Source: a virus. From it: a stretch of 28,622 nucleotides of DNA. Below the pieces are notes generated by a model. The model saw nothing but the letters and a program-made list of their open reading frames with translations. It had not been told where the DNA came from and ran no database searches. The stretch is taken from IMG/VR virus record IMGVR_UViG_3300020391_000016, positions 1 to 28,622 of that record; one strand, written 5' to 3'. Positions 5,233 through 18,822 of the stretch are shown here, in pieces; within the stretch, counting starts at the first letter, position 1, and every line of letters starts with the position of its first letter. The translations under genes were made by a program, and so were the position numbers.

Positions 5233-6347
5233 TAGAAACTACCCATATCTTTAGCTGTACCACTACCACCCATAAAGTCTTTATCTTGTCCAAAACTAGA
5301 TTGATAACCACCTCTTCCAGCAGCTCTATTTTCTTGAGCCATACGTCTTGTAGCATTTACTCTAGCTTGTTCTTCTTTTCTTTTTAATTCTTCCAACTGT
5401 TTTCTTCTTTCAATTAATTTCTTAGATAATTCTAGACCTTTAACTTTTTTCTTTTGTTCTGTTTTTAATATAGTTGCAAGTCTCTTATCTATTGCTGTTG
5501 TCAAACCTTGATTGCCAAACATAGACACTGGATTGTACCCTTTCATAATACCACTTTGAATACGACCTATACTATCTAATCCAGTTTCGTTTTCATAAAA
5601 ATCTTTTAATAATTTTTGTTCTGGAGTTAATTGCATTTTACCTAGTGCACTACCAATAAAACTACCCACAGGTCCACCAATTACACTACCTATTCCTCTG
5701 AGCATTAAATCCTTACCAGAGCCAAACATGTTTACTCCCTTGTCTTTTACATTTGTTAACAAATTTGCTAAATCAAAACGTGGTTTAGATGTCTGTGAAA
5801 ATTCATCTATCATTGCTGCTGTGTTAAGTCCTGCATCATCCAAAGCTAATGAACCTATTCTATTTAATTCTTTTCTATTTTTTCTGTCCTCTATTATAGC
5901 TTCTATATCATCTAATTCAGGTGCATAAGCTGGACTAATAATAGCGTCACCAATTGTTTTTGCAAAACTTTTACCATAATCTGTTAATTTATCTCCTAGT
6001 CCTAAAGTTGCTCCATATGTTCTGCCTAACAAACTATCAATTGGATTTTCTGCAGCAATTGATTTACCTATGTCTGCAAACGTAGGTGCATTTGGAACTA
6101 CATCATAATCTAAAATTCCTGTATCTGGTTCAAAACCTTCAAACGCTCTTCCTATTCCTTGAATAGTATCATAAGGCAAACTCATAGTTGCAGCTAAAGC
6201 AGGAGCATAAGGATTAAAAGGTTGGTTTTTAACAAGATCTCTAGTTGCATCAATATTATAACTCATTTGATTAGGAGTATTAGTCTTTATATTTTCAAAA
6301 TTTCCTATAGGAAATGCTTTTGATGCTATTGTATCTAATATACTCAT
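5232..6347 (-). CDS. Putative virion protein, 371 aa
   Basis: A protein of unknown function. The N-terminal half is Pro/Asp/Ala-rich with turn-forming segments. The middle (about 195-245) has Gly-rich hydrophobic runs (MLRGIGSVIGGPVGSFIGSA) that could be membrane-active or buried. The C-terminal part (about 290-345) is strongly basic and helical, with KKKVKGLELSKKLIERRKQL-type sequence likely to form a coiled coil. A Gly/Ser tail follows. A Gly-rich hydrophobic segment joined to a charged coiled coil fits a particle-internal or ejected protein, but this is inference. TAATG junctions couple it to both neighbours. Confidence 0.6.
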   Translation of the reverse strand: MSILDTIASKAFPIGNFENIKTNTPNQMSYNIDATRDLVKNQPFNPYAPALAATMSLPYDTIQGIGRAFEGFEPDTGILDYDVVPNAPTFADIGKSIAAENPIDSLLGRTYGATLGLGDKLTDYGKSFAKTIGDAIISPAYAPELDDIEAIIEDRKNRKELNRIGSLALDDAGLNTAAMIDEFSQTSKPRFDLANLLTNVKDKGVNMFGSGKDLMLRGIGSVIGGPVGSFIGSALGKMQLTPEQKLLKDFYENETGLDSIGRIQSGIMKGYNPVSMFGNQGLTTAIDKRLATILKTEQKKKVKGLELSKKLIERRKQLEELKRKEEQARVNATRRMAQENRAAGRGGYQSSFGQDKDFMGGSGTAKDMGSF

Positions 6348-8533
6348 TATCGTCTACCGTCCGGTTGTATATCTAACCTAAAAGTTCCTAGTTTCCAACT
6401 CTGATCAACTGCTGTATTTTCTATTTTTAATGAAATTGCTCTAGCTCTTGCTCGTGTATCAACTTTAGTCGTAGATGAAGTAATATCAAATGGTCCAAGA
6501 GGTGAACTTGCTTGTGTGCTGTTTGGATAATTTTTTAATTGTAACGTAACCCTAGTTGTTCCTGTTTGTGATATAAAGTCTGGTATAAATCTTCTTATCT
6601 TCATCAAGAATTCTCCGTCCCCTCTAAGATCTGCTATGCCGGTTGATTGACCACCTAGCCCTCTTCTTTGACTTATATCAAAATCTCCAGAAGATATGTT
6701 TGATAACACTGCTGTTATAGTTCCATTTTTATTTTGATCTGTTCCTGTTTCATGTTCATAATATGCAGTTCTACCTTCTGTGTTACCTACAACGTCAAAA
6801 GATGAATCATTACCTGCAGTGTATTCTAATGCATGTGGTGTTCCAAAAACTGCAGAGTCTCTCCACATGGTTCTGGATAATGTTCCTACTGTCCATACTG
6901 GTCTAGCTCTTGATGAGTCAAAATAATTATAAGCAACCATTTTATTAACTACATCTGATGTAGAAGAAGGATAAAACCACATTATTTCTCCAAACAAATT
7001 ATTTAAACCAGCAGACACCATTTGATTACCTGATGCTAGGTTTATGTCATCGTAAACGTGATCTTCTACTAAACAGGGTAGTGATTCTAGTTTACCACCA
7101 TATCTAAAAAATCCATTCTCAGACATCCAATATGCAGCACCATCAACCTCTACACATGCATTCTGTCCAACAAGACCGCAGTTAGTTCCTACTTGTGAAA
7201 AAGCAAAAGTAAATGGTTGACCAACAAAACGTTGTGTAAACAAAGAAGTGTCAGTCCAAATATAAATTGCATCACGACCTCTTATCGCTCCTCTGATCTG
7301 TGATCCGTCGGCCAGTCTCTGTGTACCAGCGGTATTGGTTGCTGTGGGTGTATATGTGTTTATATCCTCTTGGTCAGAGAATCTTATAAACATATCATCT
7401 TGTGTAGCTGTATTTCCAATAGTTGTTTCTGTTCCAAAGAATACTAAGTGACGATCTGGTGTTGATACAACCATGTGTCTAGATGCAGTTGGTGCACCAG
7501 ATATAATAGATGCTCTAGTTTCTGTAGCATTACCTAAACTAGAATCCCAAGAAAAAACAGGACCATCATGAATTAAACAAATGGCTTTGTCACCAAAATT
7601 ATCTAATGACCACATACCTGGGTCTAAAGCTAAACCTTCTTGTGTTTGTTCATTCCACGCACTATAATCTGTACCATTTGTAACAGTAGCCCCATCGCTG
7701 TGAGACGCAGCAGAGGTTCCTCTAGCACCTCGTGTTACACCTGTTAAGGTGTTGCCACTTATACCTGTGTACTGTATCATTTCTGTTCCAATTAAAACGA
7801 AGCTAGTTCCTGTAGATGGAAACTGCACAGCGCTTGTTAAAACTATGGTCGTTGTGCTTGCATCTATAGCTCCATTTAAAGTAGTTGTGACAGCTCCTGT
7901 ATCCTCACCTCCATAAGAACCTAAACCCCAACCATAACCTTTTTCTTGAACAGGTGTGCCTACTGGATAGTAATGTTGCACTCTAATACCACCTGATGTT
8001 GTTGCACCAGATCCTGTTTCATTAGACGACATTGTAATTGTTAAAGTTGTTCCTGTCGGAACAGAGGTTACCATAAATTTTTTATCGTTAAAATCAGAAG
8101 CTCCAAAATTAGAATCTGTTATAGTTGTAAAGTTGTCTAATAAAATTATATCATTAGGGGATATACCATGAGCCGTTGAAAAAGTTAACGTTACTGTTGG
8201 TGATCCGTTGGTCGTGCTAAACGCACTGGTAAGCGTTGTCGTTGTTTTAATAGGGTGTATGTCATAAAATACGTTACCAGAAAAAGCGTACAGTATTCTG
8301 TTAGTGCCAATAATCGCATATCTTCTACCTGCCGTATTTACAAAATGATGTAAACCTCTACCGGCACCTGTCAATTCATTAGAATTAAGCGCCCCTAGCT
8401 GATTCCAGCCACCTATTTTTTCAGGTATACCATATCTAAATCTAACATTATCACAATCGGTCCATTGTCCCTCTGCTCCAGTTTCTGTGATTTGTTTATT
8501 AATTCCAGGTTGAAACCCTATTTTTTGTAGCAT
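6347..8533 (-). CDS. Putative tail nozzle / DNA-stabilisation protein (P22 gp10 / T7 gp12-like)
   Basis: A 728-residue protein beginning MLQKIGFQPGINKQITETGA, with an early segment VRFRYGIPEKIGGWNQL. Residues about 380-500 carry a blade-like pattern: IRFSDQEDINTYTP, then a short charged segment, DAIYIWTDTSLFTQRFVG, a Cys/Gly stretch and YWMSENGFFRYGG. This resembles the beta-propeller packaged-DNA stabilisation proteins of P22-like phages (gp10) and the T7 gp12 nozzle. Two small beta modules appear inserted at about 106-182 (TNGSPTVTL...AHGISPND) and 216-290 (ending TLTGVTRGARGTSAASHSDG). The nozzle closes the tail and contacts fibres, which suits a gene lying between the fibre and internal-protein genes. 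The fold call rests on remembered patterns, so confidence is moderate. Confidence 0.55.
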   Translation of the reverse strand: MLQKIGFQPGINKQITETGAEGQWTDCDNVRFRYGIPEKIGGWNQLGALNSNELTGAGRGLHHFVNTAGRRYAIIGTNRILYAFSGNVFYDIHPIKTTTTLTSAFSTTNGSPTVTLTFSTAHGISPNDIILLDNFTTITDSNFGASDFNDKKFMVTSVPTGTTLTITMSSNETGSGATTSGGIRVQHYYPVGTPVQEKGYGWGLGSYGGEDTGAVTTTLNGAIDASTTTIVLTSAVQFPSTGTSFVLIGTEMIQYTGISGNTLTGVTRGARGTSAASHSDGATVTNGTDYSAWNEQTQEGLALDPGMWSLDNFGDKAICLIHDGPVFSWDSSLGNATETRASIISGAPTASRHMVVSTPDRHLVFFGTETTIGNTATQDDMFIRFSDQEDINTYTPTATNTAGTQRLADGSQIRGAIRGRDAIYIWTDTSLFTQRFVGQPFTFAFSQVGTNCGLVGQNACVEVDGAAYWMSENGFFRYGGKLESLPCLVEDHVYDDINLASGNQMVSAGLNNLFGEIMWFYPSSTSDVVNKMVAYNYFDSSRARPVWTVGTLSRTMWRDSAVFGTPHALEYTAGNDSSFDVVGNTEGRTAYYEHETGTDQNKNGTITAVLSNISSGDFDISQRRGLGGQSTGIADLRGDGEFLMKIRRFIPDFISQTGTTRVTLQLKNYPNSTQASSPLGPFDITSSTTKVDTRARARAISLKIENTAVDQSWKLGTFRLDIQPDGRR

Positions 8534-8549
8534 AATAACCCATTATATA

Positions 8550-9170
8550 CTATAATTTACTCCAATCCAACTTTAAAGGAGCGCCTAGAAAAGGCCTTCC
8601 ATCAAACATATACTTGTCTCCATAAGGTCCGTCAAGATCATTATAATGTAAAAAAGCTTGGCAACACTCTTCTCCTTTAAAAGGGGTTCTCCAATGAACT
8701 ATTTCCATACCACGATAAACTGCTAGGTCACCTTTTTTTAAAAGTATCTTAACTTTCTTTTTTTTATTATGAACATCTTGAACATATATTTCCCAAGGAT
8801 CGCCACCTAAAGCCACCGTAACAGAAATCTCACAAGCTTTTCTATCTATATGTTTACGAAGATCATTTCCTGTTTTGTATACTCTACCATAAGAATATGT
8901 TGGCACTAGTCTAAGTTTAGTTGCTTTTTCTATTATAGGCCTTGTTTTATCTAAAAACATATCTAACCCAATTGAGCCATACAAAGCATACGTATCTACT
9001 TGTGGGTCTGTTCGCACCCCTAGATTATTTAAATTACCAAAAAATTCTTTGTCGCTTTTTACATACTGAAAATATTGTTTTTTAAACAATAAATAATTAT
9101 ATAAAAATTCACACATTTCTGAAGAAACAGCTTTTCTAACAATAATATATTTATTTTTTTTAAACGTCAT
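8550..9170 (-). CDS. 2-oxoglutarate/Fe(II)-dependent oxygenase (prolyl-hydroxylase-like)
   Basis: A 206-residue protein with a single jelly-roll oxygenase domain. Visible motifs are H107-I-D109 (in RKHIDRKACEISVTV), the distal histidine H159 (in GMEIVHWRTPFKG), and a basic residue after it (R161 or K165) that could bind 2-oxoglutarate. These would place Fe(II) and the co-substrate. The family hydroxylates or otherwise oxidises proteins or small molecules; the substrate here cannot be read. It is the last gene of the enzyme island, overlapping the preceding halogenase by 11 bases (ATGACGTTTAA). Its middle and C-terminal parts align with the ligand-less protein at 13237-13926, so the two are probably related. 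The domain call is fairly firm. Confidence 0.75.
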   Translation of the reverse strand: MTFKKNKYIIVRKAVSSEMCEFLYNYLLFKKQYFQYVKSDKEFFGNLNNLGVRTDPQVDTYALYGSIGLDMFLDKTRPIIEKATKLRLVPTYSYGRVYKTGNDLRKHIDRKACEISVTVALGGDPWEIYVQDVHNKKKKVKILLKKGDLAVYRGMEIVHWRTPFKGEECCQAFLHYNDLDGPYGDKYMFDGRPFLGAPLKLDWSKL

Positions 9171-10695
9171 ATATGTGTTTTTTTAAAAATTTATATAAAC
9201 TAAGTTCATCTTTAACAACAAAATCCCATTTTACTTTTCTATTAGTTAAATGATCTGATATACCTTTCCAAGTTTTTTTCCATTTGTCCATATCATTATC
9301 TAAGTTACCTTTAACTAATGAAACAATATTTGTAGGAGCCCAATTCATTCCAGCAGCGATTGAGTGTATTCCTCCTTGTAAACCAACAAAACGATACTGC
9401 TCATTTTTATCTATAGCATAGTTTAAAAATCCTGCGTGGCCTTCATACAACAAATTAATTACTTTATCTGACCACTGTTTGTTAAAATTTGCTTTCCAAT
9501 AATTTGTATCTTGCCTGTGTGATAAAGCATAGTGCATAGCTACAAAATCTGCAAACCCATAAAAAATAGTTTTACAGGCGTTTGTGTACACATCTTTGTC
9601 CCATTGAGATACTGGTCCTCGATCCAATGTTCTAACTAAATGATGTAAAAATTCATGAACTGAAAATAAACCATTACTTTCTAACGGTTCGATAAAACCT
9701 GCCGATAGACCAATAGCACAAACATTTTTAACCCACAGTCTATTATGAATTCCAACTCTCATTTTAATTTTTCTAAAATCTAATTCTTTTGTTTTTAAAT
9801 GCTTTTGAAATTGTTTTAGTGCTGTATCATCATCTACAAATTTACTAGAATAAACGTAGCCACTTCCAATTCTGCTCCACAAAGGTATTCTCCACACCCA
9901 ACCATTTTCAATAGCTGTACAATTAGTATAGCCTACTAATTCTTCTTCTTTGTTTTTATAAGGGATACGTGTTGCCCAAGCAGAATCATTTGGTAAAAGA
10001 TTAGTCATGTCATTAAATTTTTCTTTTAAAGTTTTATCTAAAAGTAATGATTTAAATCCAGTGCAATCAATAAATAAATCAGCCTTGTATTTTTTATTTA
10101 AACTTTTAATACCATCATCATCTTGTTCAATAGTATTAATATCTTCTTTAATATGTTTGACTCCTTTAGGTATGCATGCATTATCTCTTAACCAAATACC
10201 AAATTTAGTTGCATCAAAATGAAATGCGGTGTGTTTATGAAACTCAAATGATAGATCATTTTTTTCATTTAAAAAACATTTGTTTTGATTAACTAAAGAC
10301 ATTTGAGAGTAGGTACAATCAGCAAAATCAGAAGATGGAGTTTTAGGATATAACATTTTTTTAAACCACCAATCATTTAATAAAGATTGATTTCCATCAA
10401 CTACAGGATCTCCAAACGGATAATGAAATGCCTCACCTTTTTTATAAAAATCTGTAAACTTAATACTTAATTTATAAGATGCATCACACGCTTTCATAAA
10501 CTCTGAATCTTTAATACCAACCATAGCTTGCCATCCTCTTATGGCACCTAGTGTGCTTTCACCAACACCCACTGTAGAAATAGTTGGACTTTCTATAAGA
10601 GATATATCTTTTTTAGGAAAAAATTTTATAAGGGTGGTTGCGGTCATCCAACCAGCAGATCCTCCACCGACAATTATAATTTTTTTAATAGCCAT
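9160..10695 (-). CDS. Flavin-dependent halogenase (tryptophan halogenase family), catalytic residues intact
   Basis: A 511-residue protein of normal length for flavin-dependent halogenases such as PrnA. It has the FAD-binding GGGSAGW at 10-16 and TVGVGESTLG near 41-50. A lysine at 75 (DASYKLSIKF) aligns with the catalytic Lys79 of PrnA. DLFIDCTGF lies near 207, the family signature WVWRIP at 266-271, and FIEPLESNG at 334-342, where E339 and S340 match Glu346 and Ser347 of PrnA. In the family, FADH2 and O2 generate hypohalous acid, which the lysine relays to an aromatic or other substrate. No flavin reductase is present, so reduced flavin would come from the host. Marine viral halogenases are known (VirX1 of cyanophage Syn10). 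Substrate and halide are not readable. It overlaps both neighbours by 11 bases. Confidence 0.88.
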   Translation of the reverse strand: MAIKKIIIVGGGSAGWMTATTLIKFFPKKDISLIESPTISTVGVGESTLGAIRGWQAMVGIKDSEFMKACDASYKLSIKFTDFYKKGEAFHYPFGDPVVDGNQSLLNDWWFKKMLYPKTPSSDFADCTYSQMSLVNQNKCFLNEKNDLSFEFHKHTAFHFDATKFGIWLRDNACIPKGVKHIKEDINTIEQDDDGIKSLNKKYKADLFIDCTGFKSLLLDKTLKEKFNDMTNLLPNDSAWATRIPYKNKEEELVGYTNCTAIENGWVWRIPLWSRIGSGYVYSSKFVDDDTALKQFQKHLKTKELDFRKIKMRVGIHNRLWVKNVCAIGLSAGFIEPLESNGLFSVHEFLHHLVRTLDRGPVSQWDKDVYTNACKTIFYGFADFVAMHYALSHRQDTNYWKANFNKQWSDKVINLLYEGHAGFLNYAIDKNEQYRFVGLQGGIHSIAAGMNWAPTNIVSLVKGNLDNDMDKWKKTWKGISDHLTNRKVKWDFVVKDELSLYKFLKKHIYDV

Positions 10696-12103
10696 TATGA
10701 ATCCTGTCTAAATATCCTTTTATAGTTATAGCATCTTTGGTTTCTGTCTTAATTTGATTTAAATATTTTACACGCATTTGTTTATGAAGTGAAGCAGAAT
10801 ATAAAGAAATTTCTTTAGCTATATTTTTACGATTAAAATGATTAATGCCCTCTAAAACATATATGTGATTAATCTCATGAAAATTTAAATAACGACTTTG
10901 AAAATCTTGAGTAATAGGTAATCTTCTTTTCCAAGTATTTAATTTTTCTTGGAAATCATCAGAAAAAGTTATTCTTTCATTTTTCCAAAACGAAGTATTT
11001 TTACCTTTTGCTAAATAATGAAGAGCTACAAAGTTACGAATATTCCAACTTGTAATCTGCCAATGTTTATTAAAAGTATCAATTTCTTTTTCTGTATAAT
11101 TACTTATATAATTACAAAAACAAAACGTTTGTTGAACAGATGCCCCTATCGCACTAGCCCCAAGTGGTTCTGCAAACAAAGCACTCAAACCTATAGCCAT
11201 GCAATTTTTTATCCATGGTTTTTCTAAATAGCCATCATTAAACTTAATAAATTTTTCTATCTTAATAGGATGACCCAATAGTTTTTCTACCTCTTGTTGT
11301 GCTTTTTCTCTGGTAATATAATTCGAATTATATATGTAACCGTTACCGGATCTATTATAAGTTGGTATTCTCCAAAGCCAACCAGCGTTCATGGCTTGTG
11401 CCAAGGTCCATGGATTATAATTATTTTCATCGTTTGTATTAAAAGCCATTCCTTCATTCATAAGAAGGTTAAAAGGTTTCCATTTACTACCTAGTTTAGA
11501 TATTAAAAGTTTTTTAAATCCAGTGCAGTCAAAATAAAAATCTGCTTTGTATGTTTTTTTAAGTCCTTTTAAAGATTCAATCTTATCGGTATGGACAACA
11601 TCAACAATTTCATCATCTATTACTTTAATATTTCGTTCTTTACATTTCTTAATTAAGAATTGATTTAATTTGTAAGTATTAAAATGATATAAATTACAAC
11701 GAACATTTTTACTCATTAAATTCTTTTTAAGAAAAGGAGACATAATCTCGTTAAAAGAAATCTTATTAGCAATGCAATAAGCATAAAAAAGATCATACTG
11801 CCCCATGGTAAAACGATGGTCATTGTCTACAAAATGTAAATATGGTTTAGGAGTCCAGTCTCTAAACATAATTCCAAATTTAAATGTTGCATCTGCTTCC
11901 CTAATTAAATCTTCAGGTTTAATATTACAAACAGACATGAACTCACTCCAATGTTCTGAAGTTCCCTCTCCCACACCAACGATTCCAAGACGGTCAGATT
12001 TAATAATTTTTATATCTATTTTTTCAAAACGCGCTCTTAATATTAAAGCTGCAGCTAATCCAGATGTTCCTCCTCCTGCAATAATTATTTTTTTTACGTT
12101 CAT
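10685..12103 (-). CDS. Tryptophan-halogenase-family flavoprotein with altered active-site motif
   Basis: A 472-residue protein of the same family as its downstream neighbour, but divergent. It keeps GGGTSGL (10-16), IVGVGEGTSE (41-50), K75 (DATFKFGIMF), FDCTGF (191-196) and WLWRIP (242-247). At the position of PrnA Glu346-Ser347 it reads FAEPLGASAIG (310-320), so Gly315 and Ala316 replace Glu and Ser. The FAD fold and catalytic lysine are therefore kept, but the acid proposed to orient the lysine or hypohalous acid is missing. It may halogenate by a variant mechanism, act on a different substrate, oxidise without halogenating, or be a non-catalytic partner. The frame is full length with no decay. 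It overlaps the next gene by 11 bases (ATGGCTATTAA) and sits 2 bases after the preceding oxygenase gene. Confidence 0.8.
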   Translation of the reverse strand: MNVKKIIIAGGGTSGLAAALILRARFEKIDIKIIKSDRLGIVGVGEGTSEHWSEFMSVCNIKPEDLIREADATFKFGIMFRDWTPKPYLHFVDNDHRFTMGQYDLFYAYCIANKISFNEIMSPFLKKNLMSKNVRCNLYHFNTYKLNQFLIKKCKERNIKVIDDEIVDVVHTDKIESLKGLKKTYKADFYFDCTGFKKLLISKLGSKWKPFNLLMNEGMAFNTNDENNYNPWTLAQAMNAGWLWRIPTYNRSGNGYIYNSNYITREKAQQEVEKLLGHPIKIEKFIKFNDGYLEKPWIKNCMAIGLSALFAEPLGASAIGASVQQTFCFCNYISNYTEKEIDTFNKHWQITSWNIRNFVALHYLAKGKNTSFWKNERITFSDDFQEKLNTWKRRLPITQDFQSRYLNFHEINHIYVLEGINHFNRKNIAKEISLYSASLHKQMRVKYLNQIKTETKDAITIKGYLDRIHNGY

Positions 12104-12105
12104 AT

Positions 12106-12618
12106 TTAATGTTTAAACACAGAATTAAATGCTATTACAGTTTTTCTATTATTAGCGACAGGCTTTGACCTATGCACTAAAAAACCTGGAAAGGTTATTA
12201 CCTGACCTTCTTTAGCTTTATATTCTATAATTTTCTTTTCTCCTGATTTAATTTCTGTTTTTTCTTTAGCACTATTTAATTCTAAAAAATAAACATTGGT
12301 GTAATTACTATACTCATGATTATGCCACTCATGAAAAGAAAATTCAGTATATTGTTGAAACCAAGCATTAGCTATTTCCCACTTTGACGCTTCAAAATAT
12401 TTCATTTGTTTATCCATAATAGGAGTTATTACATTCTTATAAAAATAATCTAAGTATTCTCTTTTAAAATCTGATGGTATATTCCAATCTGTTTTAGATA
12501 CCGAACTAAAAGATTTATTGGGCATTTTTTTTATTAAATTTAATAATTTCTTTTTGTGTTTTTTATGATTAGGAACATCACAAATAAACATAGCACAAGG
12601 AATTGTTTTTATCTCCAT
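12106..12618 (-). CDS. Putative 2OG-Fe(II) oxygenase (2OG-FeII_Oxy_5-like)
   Basis: Probably 170 residues. An in-frame ATG exists at 12636, but the ATG at 12618 (MEIKTIPCAMF) is preceded at good distance by AGGAG, so it is preferred. The C-terminal half has the jelly-roll pattern of the PF13759-type family: FHEWHNHEYSNYTNVYFLEL gives H99-N-H101, a distal histidine is at 149 (GFLVHRSKPV), and an arginine at 158 (NNRKTVIAFN) suits 2-oxoglutarate binding. The family often shows H-x-H rather than H-x-D at the first site, and so does this protein. Reaction and substrate are unknown. The gene overlaps the upstream oxygenase by 10 bases and ends 2 bases before the second halogenase, within the enzyme operon. 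Confidence 0.7.
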   Translation of the reverse strand: MEIKTIPCAMFICDVPNHKKHKKKLLNLIKKMPNKSFSSVSKTDWNIPSDFKREYLDYFYKNVITPIMDKQMKYFEASKWEIANAWFQQYTEFSFHEWHNHEYSNYTNVYFLELNSAKEKTEIKSGEKKIIEYKAKEGQVITFPGFLVHRSKPVANNRKTVIAFNSVFKH

Positions 12619-13247
12619 GGCTCTCCTAAGTGCCACATTGGCATACTATATCTAGTGCCTTTGGTAACAGGTCTAACTCTGTGTTTAACAAAAGAGGGAA
12701 ACACAATAAGAGATCCTTTTGTATTAATTTCAGTAATAATTCTTTTTCCCTCAGAACCACCATTACTAAAATCCATTTCAAACTCTCCCCCTTCAAAATC
12801 TTTTCCTGGTTGAGACAACAATAAAACAGAACTTAATTTTCTAATTTTACCCGCAAAATCTTTTCCTGCGTTACTTTTATAAGGTTCTGCCCAACTGTCC
12901 ATATGCCAATCATAAAACTGTCCTTTTTTATATTCAGTAAATTGAGCATTTTCATTCCAATCCCATTGAAAATTCCAACCAGCATTATGGTTTGCTGCTG
13001 TAATCGCAGGGTTAATAGTTTCATATATCCATTTTTCTTGTAACCAATTAACTTTTGAATTTCTTTGTTTTTTTAATTGCATCAGTTCTTTCTTGGATAA
13101 CGGATTTTTTTTTAGATTCCTGTTAAAACCTTGGTTCCCAGTTATTGCAGTGTGTTTTTTATTTTTATTTCCTAGTTTTAAAATTTTATCAATAAAAGAT
13201 TTAGGAAATGGATTTTTAAAATACCAATAAAAATTTTTAAGATTCAT
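12609..13247 (-). CDS. Prolyl-4-hydroxylase-type 2OG-Fe(II) oxygenase
   Basis: A 212-residue protein with a complete oxygenase active site. YKKGQFYDWHMDSWAEPY gives H115-M-D117, LIVFPSFVKHRVRPV gives H189, and KGTRYSMPMWHLGEPW gives R199 for the 2-oxoglutarate carboxylate. The LSSVLLLSQPGKDFEGGEFE segment (138-157) is the classical strand-turn of the P4H/PKHD class (2OG-FeII_Oxy_3). Such enzymes hydroxylate side chains of proteins, often proline or lysine, or small molecules. The target here is unknown. The gene lies inside the enzyme operon, overlapping the upstream degenerate homologue by 11 bases (ATGAATCTTAA). Of the oxygenases here, this is the most canonical. Confidence 0.85.
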   Translation of the reverse strand: MNLKNFYWYFKNPFPKSFIDKILKLGNKNKKHTAITGNQGFNRNLKKNPLSKKELMQLKKQRNSKVNWLQEKWIYETINPAITAANHNAGWNFQWDWNENAQFTEYKKGQFYDWHMDSWAEPYKSNAGKDFAGKIRKLSSVLLLSQPGKDFEGGEFEMDFSNGGSEGKRIITEINTKGSLIVFPSFVKHRVRPVTKGTRYSMPMWHLGEPWR

Positions 13248-13926
13248 ATTTTTTTAATTTTTCTTTTAAATCATTAATCTCTTGATTTAATGCAACATGT
13301 TTTTTAGTTGCCATATTTAATTGATGATGAATATGTTCGTACGTATTGTTTTTATGATTTACTGTAAAATTTTTTTTTAACTTTTGATGAAGCATATTAG
13401 TTAAAGGATCTAAATGTAAACCTTCATATGCATACGGCCGACAAATTGGACAATTACAAACATAATGTGCTTCAAATTCTAAATACGGTTTAGGTCCCTT
13501 ATAAGGTTCTCTCCACATTTCATAACCACTACCATCATAAATAAAAGCTTCATTACATTTTAATTCTTGTTCATAAGTTTCATTAGTGCGGACATCTCTA
13601 AAATAAGTTGTCCAATTATTTTCTTCAAATAAATTTACTAACACAGTTATATCATGTTTTATGGGTTGCAAGTGTTTAGTAACTTTAGCATCTGGCATAT
13701 AAGAATTTAAACTAGAATAATGAGGCATTATAAATCTATCATAATTTTCTTTAACAACATTTAATCTTTTTGTTGCAAGGTACTGACTAACTAAAGTTTG
13801 CTTCCACATTTTTTTAAGATTAGTAGGGTATTGATCTCTTGGCACTCTTGCTTGTAAAAAATCAATATGACGTATTAATCCTGAGGCGTCATTAGGTTCA
13901 AAAAAATTTTTAACTTTTTCTATCAT
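13237..13926 (-). CDS. Oxygenase-fold homologue lacking iron ligands, with Cys cluster
   Basis: A 229-residue protein whose middle aligns with the oxygenase at 8550-9170. VTKHLQPIKHDITVLVNL matches RKHIDRKACEISVTVAL, NNWTTYFRDV matches DPWEIYVQDV, and YEMWREPYKG matches EIVHWRTPFKG. At the metal sites H-x-D has become H85-L-Q87, and the distal histidine is M137, so Fe(II) is unlikely to bind in the usual way. K143 is retained. Added features are C157-N-C159-P-I-C162, a possible metal site, and a Lys/Glu/Asn-rich helical C-terminus (about 195-229). It may be a structural or substrate-binding partner of the active enzymes. The intact frame and operon coupling (4-base ATGA and 11-base overlaps) argue against decay. 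Confidence 0.6.
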   Translation of the reverse strand: MIEKVKNFFEPNDASGLIRHIDFLQARVPRDQYPTNLKKMWKQTLVSQYLATKRLNVVKENYDRFIMPHYSSLNSYMPDAKVTKHLQPIKHDITVLVNLFEENNWTTYFRDVRTNETYEQELKCNEAFIYDGSGYEMWREPYKGPKPYLEFEAHYVCNCPICRPYAYEGLHLDPLTNMLHQKLKKNFTVNHKNNTYEHIHHQLNMATKKHVALNQEINDLKEKLKKYES

Positions 13927-14540
13927 TGTAAAGATTTTGTTATTACATCCATGTTTCCTGAAATGCTAACTCTAGTACATTTTGTAGTAAAAGGATAGAC
14001 TTGATGTTTTAAGTAAGAAGGGAACATTAACATTAGATTATTTTCAGGGATAAATTCTGCTTGAGTTATTCCTCTTCGAATATCCACGTCACCATATGAA
14101 AATAAAATACAACCAGGACCTGCACAATTAGTTTGTTTTATTCTTTTTTTAATTTCATTTTTTAATTTTGTTGGCACATCACAATAAATAACAAAAGAAT
14201 AATCTCCGGAATGTATATGTTGTGGGTTATATTCATTTTGTTGTTGATAATTAATCCACAAGTTTAATGGTTTCCATTCTACACAATTTATTTGCCAATG
14301 TTTTTTTTGAGCATGAAAATAACTTTCAAAGTAAGGTGTTAATTTTTTCCAAATTATTTTAGCTGTTTTTTTATCAAATAAAAATTCTTTTTTTATTTGT
14401 CCGGCTAAATGAGCTCTAAAACTAAATTTTTGTTCTTTTCCTTTTTCTAAAATATATTTAGAAAGGTTTGAATTGATTTTACTTGTCCATAAAAAAGGTC
14501 CAAAATATTTAAAATAGTATTGTATCTCTACATCTTTCAT
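13923..14540 (-). CDS. Putative 2OG-Fe(II) oxygenase (2OG-FeII_Oxy_5-like)
   Basis: A 205-residue protein and first gene of the minus-strand enzyme operon. The N-terminal part is helical and basic. The jelly-roll motifs are NLWINYQQQNEYNPQHIHSG (H108-I-H110), LMFPSYLKHQVYPF (H179) and TRVSISGN (R190), matching the PF13759-type family with an H-x-H first site. Substrate and reaction are unknown. No Shine-Dalgarno is visible before the ATG, and a TTGACA/TATATG promoter lies only about 11-40 bases upstream, so its transcript may have almost no leader. The 4-base overlap (ATGA) couples it to the next gene. It is divergent from the plus-strand oxygenase at 14581, which belongs to the same family. 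Confidence 0.72.
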   Translation of the reverse strand: MKDVEIQYYFKYFGPFLWTSKINSNLSKYILEKGKEQKFSFRAHLAGQIKKEFLFDKKTAKIIWKKLTPYFESYFHAQKKHWQINCVEWKPLNLWINYQQQNEYNPQHIHSGDYSFVIYCDVPTKLKNEIKKRIKQTNCAGPGCILFSYGDVDIRRGITQAEFIPENNLMLMFPSYLKHQVYPFTTKCTRVSISGNMDVITKSLQ

Positions 14541-14550
14541 GCTAGAAATT

Positions 14551-14579
14551 CATATAAAATAAAATAATAAAAATGTCAA
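14551..14579 (-). promoter_or_regulatory. Sigma-70-like promoter for the enzyme operon
   Basis: On the minus strand a perfect -35 box TTGACA (14579-14574) is followed by a 17-base A/T spacer and a TATATG -10 box (14556-14551). Transcription would start about 4-8 bases before the ATG at 14540, which itself has no Shine-Dalgarno, so a near-leaderless mRNA is expected. The site lies in the only divergent gap of the window and would give the oxygenase/halogenase operon its own host-type promoter. The interval is very A+T-rich, so the -10 alone is weak evidence; the exact -35 and ideal spacing carry the call. Confidence 0.5.
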
Positions 14580-14580
14580 T

Positions 14581-15102
14581 ATGAAAGAATACTTATTTAC
14601 CATTCCTTATTGGAGTTTTGATTTAAGTCAAGATTGGAAAAAAAACAAATTAATTTTAAAAAGATTAATTAAAAAATATCCATACAGCCGAAGCACGTGT
14701 TTTTATTCTAATAAAGATAAAACGGATGAAATTTTTAACAACACTCTGTTATCTTTAATTAAAAAACCTCTAGAACAGGTTAGCAAAGAAATTAATCAGT
14801 CCCTTGTATTACGTAAAGCTTGGTCCTGTTATTACAAAAAAGGCGATTCGATAATTGTTCACAAACACAGTAATGAAGGTTTGAGTGGTATTTTATATTT
14901 AAACTATAATGAGAAAAAAAATTCAAAAACTATTTATCAACAACCCTTTCAAAGTTTTTGGAATGATCAAAGTTTTTTTATTGTCCCTCCTGTCAAAGAA
15001 GGAACATTAGTTATAGTCCCTAGTTTTATTGAACATTTTACTCTACCTGAAAAAACAGATAAAATTAAAGAAATAATTAGTTTTGATTTAAAACTTAATT
15101 AG
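14581..15102 (+). CDS. Plus-strand putative 2OG-Fe(II) oxygenase (2OG-FeII_Oxy_5-like)
   Basis: A 173-residue protein and the only gene on the plus strand here. The motifs DSIIVHKHSNEGLSGILYL (H94-K-H96) and LVIVPSFIEHFTLPEK (H152) are those of the PF13759-type family, and LSGILYL is the typical strand after the first site. Where the family usually has an arginine for 2-oxoglutarate, this protein has KIKEIISFDL, so a lysine (K163) may substitute. It starts 40 bases from the divergent operon and has no visible Shine-Dalgarno. Its last 8 bases overlap the convergent minus-strand gene at 15095. Late read-through from the fibre genes would make antisense RNA over it. The family call is fairly good; catalytic competence is less sure. 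Confidence 0.68.
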   Translation: MKEYLFTIPYWSFDLSQDWKKNKLILKRLIKKYPYSRSTCFYSNKDKTDEIFNNTLLSLIKKPLEQVSKEINQSLVLRKAWSCYYKKGDSIIVHKHSNEGLSGILYLNYNEKKNSKTIYQQPFQSFWNDQSFFIVPPVKEGTLVIVPSFIEHFTLPEKTDKIKEIISFDLKLN

Positions 15103-15508
15103 CGTCCCAAGAAGATGTATTTGGATTCCAAACTAAATCTACAGAATACCATTCTAAATTAGATTCATCCCAAAATATTGGAGGAGATTCTCCATCTATT
15201 TCTGGCGGATTTTGACTAGGGTAAGCAACAGGTGCTTCCCATTGCCAAGTTGAAGTATTCAGAGTCCATGACTCATATGGTTTAGCATCTATAAAAACAT
15301 TATTTGTTGGATCCCACGTAGATCCAATCTGTGCTGCATTCGCTTTAAAACTTCCATCTTTGCTGTATTCAATCCATTGTTCTGCAGGCCATTTTTGAGA
15401 TTGTTGTAAAAAGTTTTGACCCTCTGCTTCTGTAGGGGCATCTTCATCTGAAACTACTACAACGTTTAATACGATATTGTCATTTCCTAATTGTGCAAAA
15501 TATTTCAT
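15095..15508 (-). CDS. Trp-rich fibre-associated phage protein
   Basis: A 137-residue protein beginning MKYFAQLGNDNIVLNVVVV. From memory, this start and the later pattern (YESWTLNTSTWQWEAPV near residues 78-92) are widespread in proteins encoded beside tail-fibre genes of marine phages. Ten tryptophans occur in 137 residues, several in W-D/N-x-x-x-x-x-W turns, and the C-terminal half is Pro/Asp-rich. It may be a fibre tip, chaperone or small receptor-binding component. It is the last gene of the fibre block and ends convergently against the plus-strand oxygenase with an 8-base overlap. Coding status is strong; function is inferred from neighbours. Confidence 0.6.
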   Translation of the reverse strand: MKYFAQLGNDNIVLNVVVVSDEDAPTEAEGQNFLQQSQKWPAEQWIEYSKDGSFKANAAQIGSTWDPTNNVFIDAKPYESWTLNTSTWQWEAPVAYPSQNPPEIDGESPPIFWDESNLEWYSVDLVWNPNTSSWDAN

Positions 15509-15513
15509 AATAA

Positions 15514-16380
15514 TTATTGGAATTTGTATCTAATGATTACAACACCAGGTCCTCCAGTTGATCCTCCGCCGCCACCGCCGCCGCCAAGGTTAGTTCCGCC
15601 ATCTACTCCAGGTACAGCAGGTACAGGTCTTCCGTCTCCTCCGCCTCCAGATCCGCCAGTTCCACCACCGCCGGTTCCGCCGCCACCGCCGCCACCAGCG
15701 TAATTTACACCTGATCCAGTAATGCTGCTTGGTGCTCCAGCACCACCAGCACCATGATTAGGTGAACCAGCACCACCAGCACCACCACCACCGCCTGAGC
15801 CGTGAGGAGGGTGAGGGTGACCATTGCCACCAGGGTTTCCTTGAGAGGGACTTACAGGAGGTGTATTACCTGCTCCTCCAGTAGAACCACTAGTAAAATA
15901 TCCTGCACCACCGCCAGATCCACCTACGTTTCCAGCTCTTGGTCCGTTAGATACTCCGCCGCCACCGCCGGTGCTTGTAATAGTTGAAAAAACTGAGTCA
16001 CCACCTTTATTAGAATTAGTATTTCCTCCGCCATCTGGTCCAGTTCCACCAGCTCCAATGGTAACAGTAATATCACCATCTGCAACTGTAAGGGCATCAG
16101 TAGCTGCTAAAGGGTCGCCTGGATAATTTGTTCTCATTCCGCCAGCTCCGCCGCCAGCTCCATGAGGAGCATCGCTTCCACCGCCTCCACCAACTACCAG
16201 ATATCTTACCTTATCGCCATCTGTTGAGTCTGTTCCTGTTGTTACTGTAAAAGTTCCTGAGGAATTAAAAGTATGTATCTTATCATTACCTGAAGTTGTT
16301 ACCGTACCACCGGTTGCCTCCATAAATTCAGGTCTGCCACCTCCTGCTCCGAAACCTAATATTCTATATCCAAAAGACAT
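15514..16380 (-). CDS. Polyglycine-sandwich tail-fibre tip / adhesin-like protein
   Basis: A 288-residue protein. The N-terminal 65 residues are beta-rich (GGTVTTSGNDKIHTFNSSGT), followed by YLVVGGGGGSDAPHGAGGGA and about 200 residues made mostly of Gly-rich runs separated by short Ser/Thr/Asn/Pro/His loops. It ends GGPGVVIIRYKFQ. This layout resembles the polyglycine domain of receptor-binding adhesins such as gp38 of T4-like phage S16, where Gly helices carry variable recognition loops. A host-recognition role is therefore likely, but it is inferred from composition. A His/Pro loop (NGHPHPPHGSG) near residue 190 is unusual. The DNA is locally GC-rich from GGN codons, unlike its surroundings. 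The start follows AAGGAAT at usable distance. Confidence 0.65.
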   Translation of the reverse strand: MSFGYRILGFGAGGGRPEFMEATGGTVTTSGNDKIHTFNSSGTFTVTTGTDSTDGDKVRYLVVGGGGGSDAPHGAGGGAGGMRTNYPGDPLAATDALTVADGDITVTIGAGGTGPDGGGNTNSNKGGDSVFSTITSTGGGGGVSNGPRAGNVGGSGGGAGYFTSGSTGGAGNTPPVSPSQGNPGGNGHPHPPHGSGGGGGAGGAGSPNHGAGGAGAPSSITGSGVNYAGGGGGGGTGGGGTGGSGGGGDGRPVPAVPGVDGGTNLGGGGGGGGSTGGPGVVIIRYKFQ

Positions 16381-16392
16381 ATTTTATATTCC

Positions 16393-17607
16393 TTATGCGT
16401 CGTTAGCAGCATCTGTAGTGAAAAATATTTTTACTCCTAGTAATTTAGCATCTGCTGTTAAAGAGTCCTCAGATACATCTCTAGCTATTTGAAAAAACAC
16501 TTGTTCATCTGTGCTAGGGGACCCAGCTATAGTAACTGCTCCACTTTCTGCTGTAACGTCTAAATCGTTTGCTGTACCACTGTGTGCTTTTGCTGTAGGT
16601 GCAACTGCTGTTCCAAAAGCAGTATTGCAAGAATCATTATCTGCTATAGCAACACCAGATAAAGCCCAAGACACAGTTCCTGTGTTTGTTGAGTCAGCTG
16701 TAAAAAATGCTTGAAAAGTTATTGTGCCTTCGTTCCAAGATTTTGGAAAAGCAATAGCAAATTGACCATTCTCATCAGAGTCTTTGTCAAAATCTAAAGT
16801 TTTAATCTCAGGTCCATTCGATAATTCTACTTGACCAGCTTCTGCTCCGTTAGTAGTGTTAGGATACATAGCAACCGCTGGGACCCAAATAGTCTCTTTT
16901 CCTGCAACTTTGACTGCCGCTGATCCTGTTTTAAGAGCTCCTGTTCCTTTAGGATTAATATTTATATCAACATTAGTTTCTCCTGTTGCTGATAAAATTG
17001 GACCGTTTCCAGTTGCTGCGTTAGCTAAAGTAAATTCATTAACTGCCGAGCTTGTTGCAGTAAGATTAAGTAATTCATTTCCGTTTGTATCTGAAATTTT
17101 TGTTCCTATTGCGGGACTAGTTAAAGTTTTATTTGTTAAAGTTTGTGTTCCAGTTGTTGTAACATCTCCATCTCCAAAAGCTAAAGTTATGATATCCGGA
17201 TTAGTTCCATCGTTAGCTGATGCAAAAACTAATTGGTCACCTTTGTCTGTAGCTGAAAAAGTAAATGAATCTCCTGACCCAGTTATATATTTAAATTGTA
17301 CTGTGTAAGCTCCAGAACTAGAATTTCTTAAAATATAAAAAGTTTGAACATCTAAAGGTATTGTAACAACTGCATTACCACTTAATGATCCGGTAAACTC
17401 TATCATTCTGTGAGATAAAACTGCACCAGTCGATCCATCTGAAACAGATAAATCAACTGTTCCACCACTTGTTAATGCTTGTTGTGTAAATCCACCAGAA
17501 ATTTGTTCTATAATTTGTAAATTAGTATTAGTCTTCGTCCCCCATGTACCGGCGTTTTCACCAGTTGCCTGAAGTTCTACCCCTAAAGGTGTAAATGTTG
17601 ATGCCAT
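16393..17607 (-). CDS. Putative tail-fibre protein
   Basis: A 404-residue beta-rich protein beginning MASTFTPLGVELQATGENAG, with GTWGTKTNTNLQII shortly after. Residues about 150-167 carry TTTGTQTLTNKTLTSPAIGT, a segment very common in phage tail fibres, followed by a repeat-like ISDTNGNELLNL region. The C-terminal 160 residues form a separate Thr/Ala/Asp-rich beta domain that could be the exposed tip. It lies between the repeat protein and the polyglycine protein, so the three probably build one fibre or spike assembly. A good AGGAGATAAA ribosome-binding site precedes the ATG. The fibre call is by motif and position; the receptor is unknown. Confidence 0.68.
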   Translation of the reverse strand: MASTFTPLGVELQATGENAGTWGTKTNTNLQIIEQISGGFTQQALTSGGTVDLSVSDGSTGAVLSHRMIEFTGSLSGNAVVTIPLDVQTFYILRNSSSGAYTVQFKYITGSGDSFTFSATDKGDQLVFASANDGTNPDIITLAFGDGDVTTTGTQTLTNKTLTSPAIGTKISDTNGNELLNLTATSSAVNEFTLANAATGNGPILSATGETNVDININPKGTGALKTGSAAVKVAGKETIWVPAVAMYPNTTNGAEAGQVELSNGPEIKTLDFDKDSDENGQFAIAFPKSWNEGTITFQAFFTADSTNTGTVSWALSGVAIADNDSCNTAFGTAVAPTAKAHSGTANDLDVTAESGAVTIAGSPSTDEQVFFQIARDVSEDSLTADAKLLGVKIFFTTDAANDA

Positions 17608-17622
17608 AATTTTTATCTCCTA

Positions 17623-18822
17623 TTACGCTGCTACGTCTGTATAACTTGTATTAGAACCTGTGTCAATAGCTTGATATGCTTGAATTCCAAAGCCTGAAGC
17701 TGTTCCAAATCCAGCTACAGAAACAGTTGCAGATTGACCTGTTAAACCCATTACATCTGCAGGTGCAATTGATCCAACAGAAGATGTAAATGAAACTCCT
17801 GTTAATCCCATTACATCAGCAGGTAAAATTGATCCAACAGATGAAGTTGTAGATTGACCCGTTAAATCTATAACAGGACTTGATCCAATAGCAATACTAC
17901 CAACGTTAAAAGATGCTGATACTCCTGTTAATCCCATCACATCAGAAGGGGATAAAGAACCAACACTTGAAGTAGAAGCTTGACCAGTTAATCCAACAAT
18001 TTCTTGTGTAGGATCTAAACTTCCTACAGATACAGTCGCTGAAACTCCTGTTAAAGAAAATTCTGCATTACTAATTATTGTAGGAGAACCAACACTACCT
18101 GTTGCCGATACTCCTGTTAATCCCATTACATCAGCAGGATTTAAAGTAAACATACCCCAACCGTTATCTCCCCAAGATGCATTACCCCAACCATTAGCAC
18201 CTGAGTTTGACGTAATTGCATCAGGAGCAGTTAGTTCTACCGTAAAACTTGATTCACCCCAAGACTCTGCATTCCAAGTATCTCTACCCCAACCTTGTTC
18301 AGGAAAAGGAATTAAATCTCCAACAGAGGAGGTTATTGATTGACCAGTTAGAAATACCGTTTCATCACTAAGTTCACCCCACTCACCATCGTTCCATGCT
18401 TTTGCACCCCAACCCGTTGTAAAAGCTTCACTTATTCCCCATAAATTTGCACCCCAAGTTCCTGCTCCCCAAAAATCAACATTAGGTGTGTTTGCTTGTC
18501 CACCCATGGCAGGATGACTAGAACAATAATAATATAAAGTTGGTGCATCAGCAGCTACCTCTATTTGTGTGTAAGCTCCAGATGATCCTGGAGTTCCGTT
18601 GGTAGTTACATTAGTGGTATACTCACTTCCTCCGGAGTGTGTACCGTCAGATGTTGTAGAAAGTCTTAAAGGATGTGTGCTATTTGATGAATCAGATTGA
18701 TCAAATCTAAAAGTTGCACCTTCAACTAATTCTAAGGTAGCTTGTTGTACACCGTCAATAAAATATTTATTTCCGGAACCGGTGCTTACCACCGTTACTG
18801 TAAAGGTTCTAGTAACGGACAT
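17623..18822 (-). CDS. Virion fibre protein with cupredoxin-like domain, Trp triplets and 20-residue repeats
   Basis: A 399-residue, three-part protein. Residues 1-110 look like a cupredoxin: GNKYFIDGVQQATLELVEG, then FDQSDSSNSTHPLRLST with H50, and LYYYCSSHPAMGG with C100, H103 and M106, a full His/Cys/His/Met set for type-1 copper. Residues 118-223 contain four Trp triplets with exact five-residue spacing: W118/123/128, W138/143/148, W178/183/188 and W212/217/222, mostly followed by Gly. Residues about 158-370 contain eight repeats around LTGVSATxSVGS. Such repeats suit a long, surface-exposed virion fibre. Whether copper binds is untested, and some marine phage proteins may use this fold purely structurally. 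A Shine-Dalgarno (AAAGGAG) precedes the ATG. Confidence 0.65.
   Translation of the reverse strand: MSVTRTFTVTVVSTGSGNKYFIDGVQQATLELVEGATFRFDQSDSSNSTHPLRLSTTSDGTHSGGSEYTTNVTTNGTPGSSGAYTQIEVAADAPTLYYYCSSHPAMGGQANTPNVDFWGAGTWGANLWGISEAFTTGWGAKAWNDGEWGELSDETVFLTGQSITSSVGDLIPFPEQGWGRDTWNAESWGESSFTVELTAPDAITSNSGANGWGNASWGDNGWGMFTLNPADVMGLTGVSATGSVGSPTIISNAEFSLTGVSATVSVGSLDPTQEIVGLTGQASTSSVGSLSPSDVMGLTGVSASFNVGSIAIGSSPVIDLTGQSTTSSVGSILPADVMGLTGVSFTSSVGSIAPADVMGLTGQSATVSVAGFGTASGFGIQAYQAIDTGSNTSYTDVAA
17713..18351 (-). repeat. Eight tandem copies of a ~20-residue LTG..SVGS unit
   Basis: Within the fibre protein, LTG(V/Q)S-type units begin at residues 158, 235, 257, 278, 298, 320, 340 and 360. The first is separated from the rest by a Trp-rich stretch. 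At DNA level the copies remain similar, for example repeated CCTGTTAATCCCAT blocks, which suggests recent duplication and a possibility of copy-number change by recombination. Confidence 0.75.
18154..18471 (-). repeat. Four W-x4-W-x4-W-G triplets
   Basis: Residues 118-223 of the fibre protein contain twelve tryptophans in four groups of three, each spaced exactly five residues apart. Glycine follows the outer tryptophans. The groups are 10, 30 and 24 residues apart, so the first two are adjacent and the others are set between LTG repeats. Confidence 0.75.

Follow-up and report, generated by a model that had tools for sequence, protein, structure and literature searches.

The virus record IMGVR_UViG_3300020391_000016, whose full 28.6 kb we call the window, carries between its fibre/adhesin genes and a nozzle-like gene an island of oxidative enzyme genes, which we tentatively read as a modular protein-tailoring cassette of the receptor-binding (adhesin) module, with enzymes whose targets would be proteins of the phage's own adhesin module. 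In marine phages, 2-oxoglutarate (2OG) oxygenases and halogenases are widespread and usually classed as metabolic cargo. Their linkage to one module of virion proteins, in podo- and myoviruses alike, offers a concrete, testable substrate hypothesis which, if true, would mean that the phage itself halogenates or hydroxylates its virion proteins. The enzyme families, synteny, co-inheritance, purifying selection and Gly-rich linkage in both podo- and myoviruses are established at the level of sequence comparison.

The initial annotation of this DNA had described the island, and its description of the locus holds: all eight open reading frames (ORFs) at 8550-15102 are present and intact, and they encode two PF04820 homologues, five members of 2OG-oxygenase families and a degenerate oxygenase. 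The late genes of the interval lie on the minus strand, oxF excepted, and the order of transcription is fibA, fibB, the Gly-rich protein gene, chap, oxF (opposite strand), oxE, oxD, oxC, oxB, HAL2, HAL1, oxA and the nozzle-like gene. The features are:

8550..9170, minus strand: oxA, 2OG-Fe(II) oxygenase-fold protein of the phrog_2954 'ferrochelatase' family (phrog_2954, 5e-47; AlphaFold2; Foldseek)
9160..10695, minus strand: HAL1, flavin-dependent halogenase homologue (PF04820, 2.5e-109; VirX1, 1.3e-103 in a PDB search; motif survey)
10685..12103, minus strand: HAL2, halogenase-family protein (PF04820, 8e-78)
12106..12636, minus strand: oxB, PF13759 oxygenase with HNH...H (Pfam; motif check)
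12609..13247, minus strand: oxC, PF13640 2OG-Fe(II) oxygenase with HMD...H...R (PF13640, 3e-14; nearest solved proteins PiuC/PKHD hydroxylases)
13237..13926, minus strand: oxD, degenerate oxA-like oxygenase-fold protein, kept in its clade (phrog_2954, 2e-10)
13923..14540, minus strand: oxE, PF13759/TIGR02466 oxygenase with HIH...H...RxS (family profiles)
14581..15102, plus strand: oxF, PF13759/TIGR02466 oxygenase with HKH...H...K (family profiles)
15095..15508, minus strand: chap, small Trp-rich protein between the adhesin and the enzymes (phrog_7759)
15514..16380, minus strand: Gly-rich adhesin-like protein, Gly_rich_2 (PF21722, 1.8e-18)
16393..17607, minus strand: fibB, fibre-like protein (phrog_31104, 6e-51; order conserved in relatives)
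17623..18822, minus strand: fibA, tail fibre protein (phrog_30742, 7e-26)
6347..8533, minus strand: nozzle-like virion protein, the downstream boundary of the slot (phrog_3287, 1.8e-95; relatives labelled 'stabilization protein' or 'tail tube B')

The closest isolates by the nozzle-like protein are 023Pt_psg01, HTVC027P and HTVC023P (40-48% identity), which have a similar gene order. Judged from nozzle identity and the late-gene order of a fragment, this marine podovirus, related to SAR11 phages, is probably of the HTVC023P type.

Linkage to Gly-rich adhesins and inheritance of a core

Relatives were gathered by use of the nozzle gene, a query that does not select for enzymes, and gave 54 complete fibB-to-nozzle slots. 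Of the 51 slots with oxygenases, 46 had a Gly-rich ORF; the three without oxygenases (L148, L157 and L164) had none and carry LamG-like proteins, a label taken from sequence inspection and the annotation of a relative rather than from a profile match. A second set was gathered with the HTVC023P nozzle and counted from a printed table; there, in 45 of 51 cases, an oxE gene came after a conserved Gly-rich protein of ~310 residues. The HTVC023P genome contains the Gly-rich/oxygenase pairing twice, and the LamG-type genomes L228, L231, L233 and L255 keep the Gly-rich/oxE pair but show no oxC/oxA island over the stretch seen. The island also adjoins Gly-rich proteins in the isolates Sf-CH11, S-SM1, S-RSM4, Mosig, HTVC008M, HTVC033P and 023Pt_psg01, several of which have a chap-like neighbour. 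The same layout recurs in unrelated myoviruses, namely Syn10 (VirX1), S-WAM1, P-TIM40, S-RIM44 and P-RSM6, together with Sf-CH11, S-SM1, S-RSM4, Mosig and HTVC008M from the isolates just listed. S-WAM1 has one halogenase, and tandem halogenase pairs lie beside Gly-rich ORFs in P-TIM40, S-RIM44 and P-RSM6. Viral halogenases are not solitary: these pairs, with that of Syn10, contradict the initial annotation where it cites VirX1 as a single viral halogenase.

Among the complete slots the oxC family is the most conserved enzyme (51/54); oxA was found in 42 of them, with chap present in 36 and a halogenase in eight. Oxygenase genes numbered from 0 to 10 per slot (median 4), with at least two in 51 of the 54 and at least six in 16, and the window, with six oxygenase-family genes, thus falls in the upper part of the ordinary range. 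The census ruled out uniqueness of its enzyme density, which had been called unusual; moreover, the isolate S-SCSM1 has 24 such genes (PMC9602691). Two halogenases per slot were seen in none of the 54 complete slots and were found in the window's own clade, L031 and L048; the window's close relatives carry the pair. In four close relatives oxB is exactly absent, and HAL2 there overlaps oxC with the same start and stop. Slot content is hypervariable, yet with a strong limitation to oxygenases and further group-tailoring enzymes. Six of the 54 slots have a carbamoyltransferase together with the oxygenases, and three have a sulfotransferase (for example L052:4920-6389 and L152:7693-8499).

The ratio of nonsynonymous to synonymous substitution rates (dN/dS) was 0.04-0.4 in nearly all comparisons of the eight island genes. 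All are under purifying selection and therefore are real genes; the intact ORFs together with these ratios rule out pseudogenes. Distance correlations were calculated for 46 non-redundant slots, with permutation p values. Nozzle and fibB distances correlated at 0.75, and those of oxC and oxA correlated with neither (about 0). The partial Mantel correlations given the nozzle were 0.52 for oxC and oxA, 0.37 for oxC and chap, and 0.33 for oxA and chap (all p=0.001), and chap, oxC and oxA thus form a core inherited as a unit. As oxA lies between chap and the nozzle gene, nearer to the latter than chap is, yet its divergence follows chap, simple distance does not explain the pattern. Scattered occurrence of these genes in related phages had been put forward as the observation that would speak against a joint system; instead the genes are found together at one conserved site and oxC and oxA travel together. 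HAL2 differs from that of relative L003 at a synonymous distance (dS) of 0.32, versus 0.04-0.05 for the flanking genes; individual genes are therefore exchanged inside the cassette.

The composition of chap makes it a candidate substrate: Trp accounts for ~5% of its residues, and several Trp residues are conserved in 80-97% of 75 homologues. Trp content showed no clear change with halogenase presence (5.3% versus 4.8%).

The cassette junctions of the window (8550-13926) often overlap by 11 nucleotides (ATG...TAA) or by 4. Among 428 enzyme-enzyme junctions of the relatives, 62 were at -11 and 114 at -4. Such overlaps are common across these cassettes and hence are weak evidence for the joint function that had been read from them. 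An ATG near 12618 is a likelier oxB start than the GTG at 12636 and gives an overlap of ~10 nucleotides. When the sequence was scanned for promoters and terminators, promoters showed no excess; the Rfam and tRNA scans were both empty. In L116, L135, L144, L147 and HTVC027P (L257:10295-11956) the oxygenases are inverted as a block relative to the late genes, which suggests an independently transcribed unit.

The enzymes of the island

The profile matches place HAL1, HAL2 and oxC firmly in their families; for oxB, oxE and oxF the assignment is clear. HAL1 aligned with VirX1 over 400 residues (44% identity) and carries the halogenase motifs GGGSAGW (GxGxxG), SYKLSIKF (catalytic Lys), WVWRIP and FIEPLESNG, the last with the catalytic Glu. 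Its halide site has Asn where VirX1 has Thr, as in other phage HAL1 relatives. HAL2 retains the Lys and WLWRIP and has FAEPLGASA in place of the EPLESTG of characterised enzymes, the catalytic Glu being replaced by Gly, Ser by Ala and Gly by Ala. In a survey of 114 relatives the Ser was missing from every HAL2-type protein, and the Glu was also missing in 10 of 10 proteins of the window's clade, which share all three replacements. Therefore, although the earlier assignment of two genes to the halogenase family stands, HAL2, which lacks the catalytic Glu and also the Ser, is not classed as a halogenase. A dN/dS of 0.04-0.21 indicates that HAL2 is still in use, and given the missing Glu and the altered halide site it is more likely to hydroxylate, to assist HAL1 or to bind substrate. 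In profile matches both proteins were weakly similar to QhpG and LodB, flavoenzymes that modify peptidyl-Trp. As had been noted, no flavin reductase was found among the ORFs scanned. A GTDB scan with HAL1 gave two contigs (L266 and L267) binned as Maricaulis and Dehalococcoidia, both of which are phage-like and contain the island and the nozzle gene, so that this single scan says nothing on a cellular origin of HAL1.

The initial annotation had credited five genes with 2OG-Fe(II) oxygenase motifs. The families proved correct, whereas the canonical HxD...H is limited to oxA and oxC; oxB, oxE and oxF have HxH...H and a downstream Arg or Lys, as in the TIGR02466/PF13759 group. oxC has the 2OG-oxygenase residues H115xD117, H189 and R199 and matches PiuC. 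oxB, oxE and oxF match PF13759 at 1e-6 to 2e-12; oxB has Lys at the 2OG position and is placed in the family by Pfam only, its TIGR02466 score being under the cut-off. Each of the HxH histidines is ~99% conserved in the oxE cluster (104 sequences), and the motif is therefore a family feature and not decay. A PDB sequence search with oxE gave nothing useful.

oxA has no Pfam match, and PHROG and GenBank label its family 'ferrochelatase'. An AlphaFold2 model built from an alignment of 28 slot homologues is a double-stranded beta-helix with a mean predicted local distance difference test score of 94. The best 50 solved matches of the model in Foldseek were 2OG oxygenases, a Pseudomonas prolyl hydroxylase first and PHD2 and PiuC among them; no ferrochelatase was present in these 50, and we reject that assignment. 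Protein hydroxylases such as P4H:EF-Tu and PHD2 are thus among the nearest solved folds of the predicted structure. H107, D109 and H159 are invariant and complete the metal triad, and the position ~10-12 residues past the distal His, where Arg or Lys would bind 2OG, is an invariant Gln171. By this model oxA therefore has the fold of an oxygenase and a full metal triad, and possibly an unusual cosubstrate site. The 'ferrochelatase' annotations lie behind published metabolic interpretations, and we suggest that they be corrected.

The degenerate oxygenase homologue of the initial annotation is oxD, a distant oxA homologue with a confidently modelled beta-helix core, in which HLQ replaces HxD and the distal His is also replaced. 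As the alignment used for the model contained oxA sequences, the modelled fold cannot count as fully independent evidence. The nearest folds of the model are AlkB homologues. With a dN/dS of 0.15-0.40, oxD is most simply seen as a non-catalytic partner.

Other labels in the relatives deserve attention. PHROG members called 'DNA endonuclease V' or 'DNA endonuclease' resemble 2OG oxygenases (L081:4881-5381 and L108:7340-7897, phrog_274; L036:7292-7783, phrog_2297), and that of L081 has a weak PF13640 match and an HxD...H...R pattern; by these resemblances, cyanophage 'denV' labels may be partly wrong. The phrog_1644 'minor coat protein' at L045:10160-10825 matches DUF6445 and, weakly, 2OG oxygenase profiles and is possibly a mislabelled oxygenase.

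A proposed function and its alternatives

In the mechanism we propose, the core of chap, oxC and oxA is supplemented by optional further oxygenases and halogenases and, in relatives, by carbamoyl- or sulfotransferases. The enzymes would be made late, together with the structural genes, and their target in the infected cell would be the newly made Gly-rich adhesin and/or the Trp-rich chap. The 2OG enzymes would oxygenate exposed side chains and HAL1 would halogenate them with reduced flavin from the host and halide from seawater, the modifications altering adhesin folding or receptor binding. We favour protein substrates on several grounds: the enzymes travel with adhesin-module genes; genes for small-molecule scaffolds are absent; the closest matches of oxA and oxC, in fold and in sequence, are hydroxylases, protein hydroxylases included; and flavoenzymes of weak similarity, QhpG for one, modify protein Trp. 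The large open active site of VirX1 (PMC8407142) also counts for this reading. The initial annotation left the substrate open; the comparative data now favour adhesin-module proteins, of which the Gly-rich adhesin would be the constant partner by presence and chap the partner by co-divergence. Action inside the cell seems likelier than packaging, as the passage on the virion proteome of S-SCSM1, with its 24 such genes, does not name oxygenases among the identified non-structural virion proteins, although 13 virion proteins are of unknown function (PMC9602691). The wider proposal that marine phages diversify their own Gly-rich adhesins by variable sets of 2OG oxygenases and halogenases, and that VirX1 and its tandem partner natively serve this purpose, is speculative and on balance unlikely.

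Several observations weigh against adhesin tailoring. Divergence of the Gly-rich protein did not significantly track that of oxC (p=0.09) or oxA, perhaps owing to poor alignment of low-complexity sequence. Six Gly-rich slots of the second set have no adjacent oxygenase, HTVC027P has three oxygenases and no Gly-rich neighbour, and the halogenases of S-B64 and P-SSM2 lie away from Gly-rich adhesin ORFs. The Fisher p values for the adhesin link (0.002 and 0.003) are descriptive only, as the slots are related and their independence is overstated. The QhpG and LodB matches are far under the curated cut-offs. Finally, the cyanophage fibre-neck region is variable and hyperplastic cargo regions are known (PMC2984593), and the linkage may thus be positional.

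This last point leads to the main rival, which we consider rather unlikely: the fibre-neck/nozzle interval would be a permissive insertion site where enzymes with separate functions co-travel by position. Hypervariable slots, the hyperplastic regions of T4-like cyanophages and the mosaic cassette, with its divergent HAL2 and exact oxB loss, all fit such a cargo site. However, it would not account for the strong limitation of content to oxygenases and group-tailoring enzymes, nor for a core of oxC, oxA and chap that is retained and co-varies independently of the backbone, and that is missing from LamG-type slots.

The enzymes might instead alter envelope components or receptors late in infection and so limit superinfection or loss of progeny on debris. 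The adhesin linkage and the carbamoyl- and sulfotransferases of sibling slots suit modification of the host surface, as does the S-SSM7 halogenase, which is intermixed with sugar-nucleotide genes. We think it quite unlikely, since most slots, the window's included, lack glycan-biosynthesis genes and protein hydroxylases are among the closest relatives of oxA and oxC.

Reprogramming of host metabolism, by oxygenases that deplete 2OG or supply succinate, appears improbable. Sullivan et al. proposed 2OG drawdown or DNA repair for cyanophages (PMC3037559), and the S-SCSM1 report again proposes reprogramming (PMC9602691), but this leaves unexplained the many divergent paralogues per cassette, the halogenases, the adhesin linkage, and the purifying selection on degenerate oxD and HAL2.

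PrnA and RebH are halogenase-family precedents for small-molecule substrates. VirX1 also halogenates small aromatics in vitro (PMC8407142), but scaffold biosynthesis genes are absent from the window and the slots, and a halogenated or oxidised small molecule made as a signal or against competitors is very improbable. Least probable is TET- or AlkB-like nucleic-acid modification: several 2OG families target nucleic acids, oxA has weak profile similarity to Tet-like dioxygenases (E 0.02) and the nearest oxD folds are AlkB homologues, but the best structural matches of oxA are prolyl hydroxylases, a fold match alone is not specific, and the genes sit among structural rather than replication genes.

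Comparison with known systems

A literature search, mostly without subscription papers, found no proposal tying these enzymes to Gly-rich adhesins. The adhesin link is thus new as far as searched, and the cassette itself is real, conserved and composed of known enzyme families. The HTVC023P and 023Pt_psg01 slots have the same order (Gly-rich adhesin, chap, oxygenases, oxC, oxA and, further on, the nozzle), but contain no halogenase, and HTVC023P has a second Gly-rich/oxE pair. Wittmers et al. (2022) noted that 2OG and 'ferrochelatase' genes are co-located in HTVC023P-type phages; their text treats oxA as a ferrochelatase and does not mention halogenases (PMC9599517).

S-SCSM1 shares a large expansion of the same 2OG families, but the function proposed there is host reprogramming, with no adhesin link in the accessible part of that report (PMC9602691). 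QhpG, LodB and GoxB, which resemble HAL1 and HAL2 weakly and far under the curated cut-offs, act on a protein Trp residue, QhpG by dihydroxylating it (PMC7876137), but their genomic setting differs.

The closest parallel to the halogenase pair is the VirX1 locus of cyanophage Syn10. VirX1 is there CPUG_00131 (HQ634191; L258:19514-21106), labelled 'hypothetical protein', whose N-terminal residues are identical to those of VirX1 in the PDB alignment. VirX1 has a large open active site and halogenated many small aromatics in vitro (PMC8407142). CPUG_00132, the adjacent gene upstream, encodes another halogenase in which every motif is present, and the tandem PF04820 pair is followed, as in the window, by PF13759/PF13640-type oxygenases and oxA (in the order oxE, ox29, oxE, oxE, oxC, ox10, ox6, oxA), with three Gly-rich ORFs adjoining. 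Unlike the window, Syn10 is a myovirus with a larger island in which the Gly-rich neighbours are several short ORFs, and both Syn10 halogenases retain EPLES[NT]G where HAL2 has EPLGASA.

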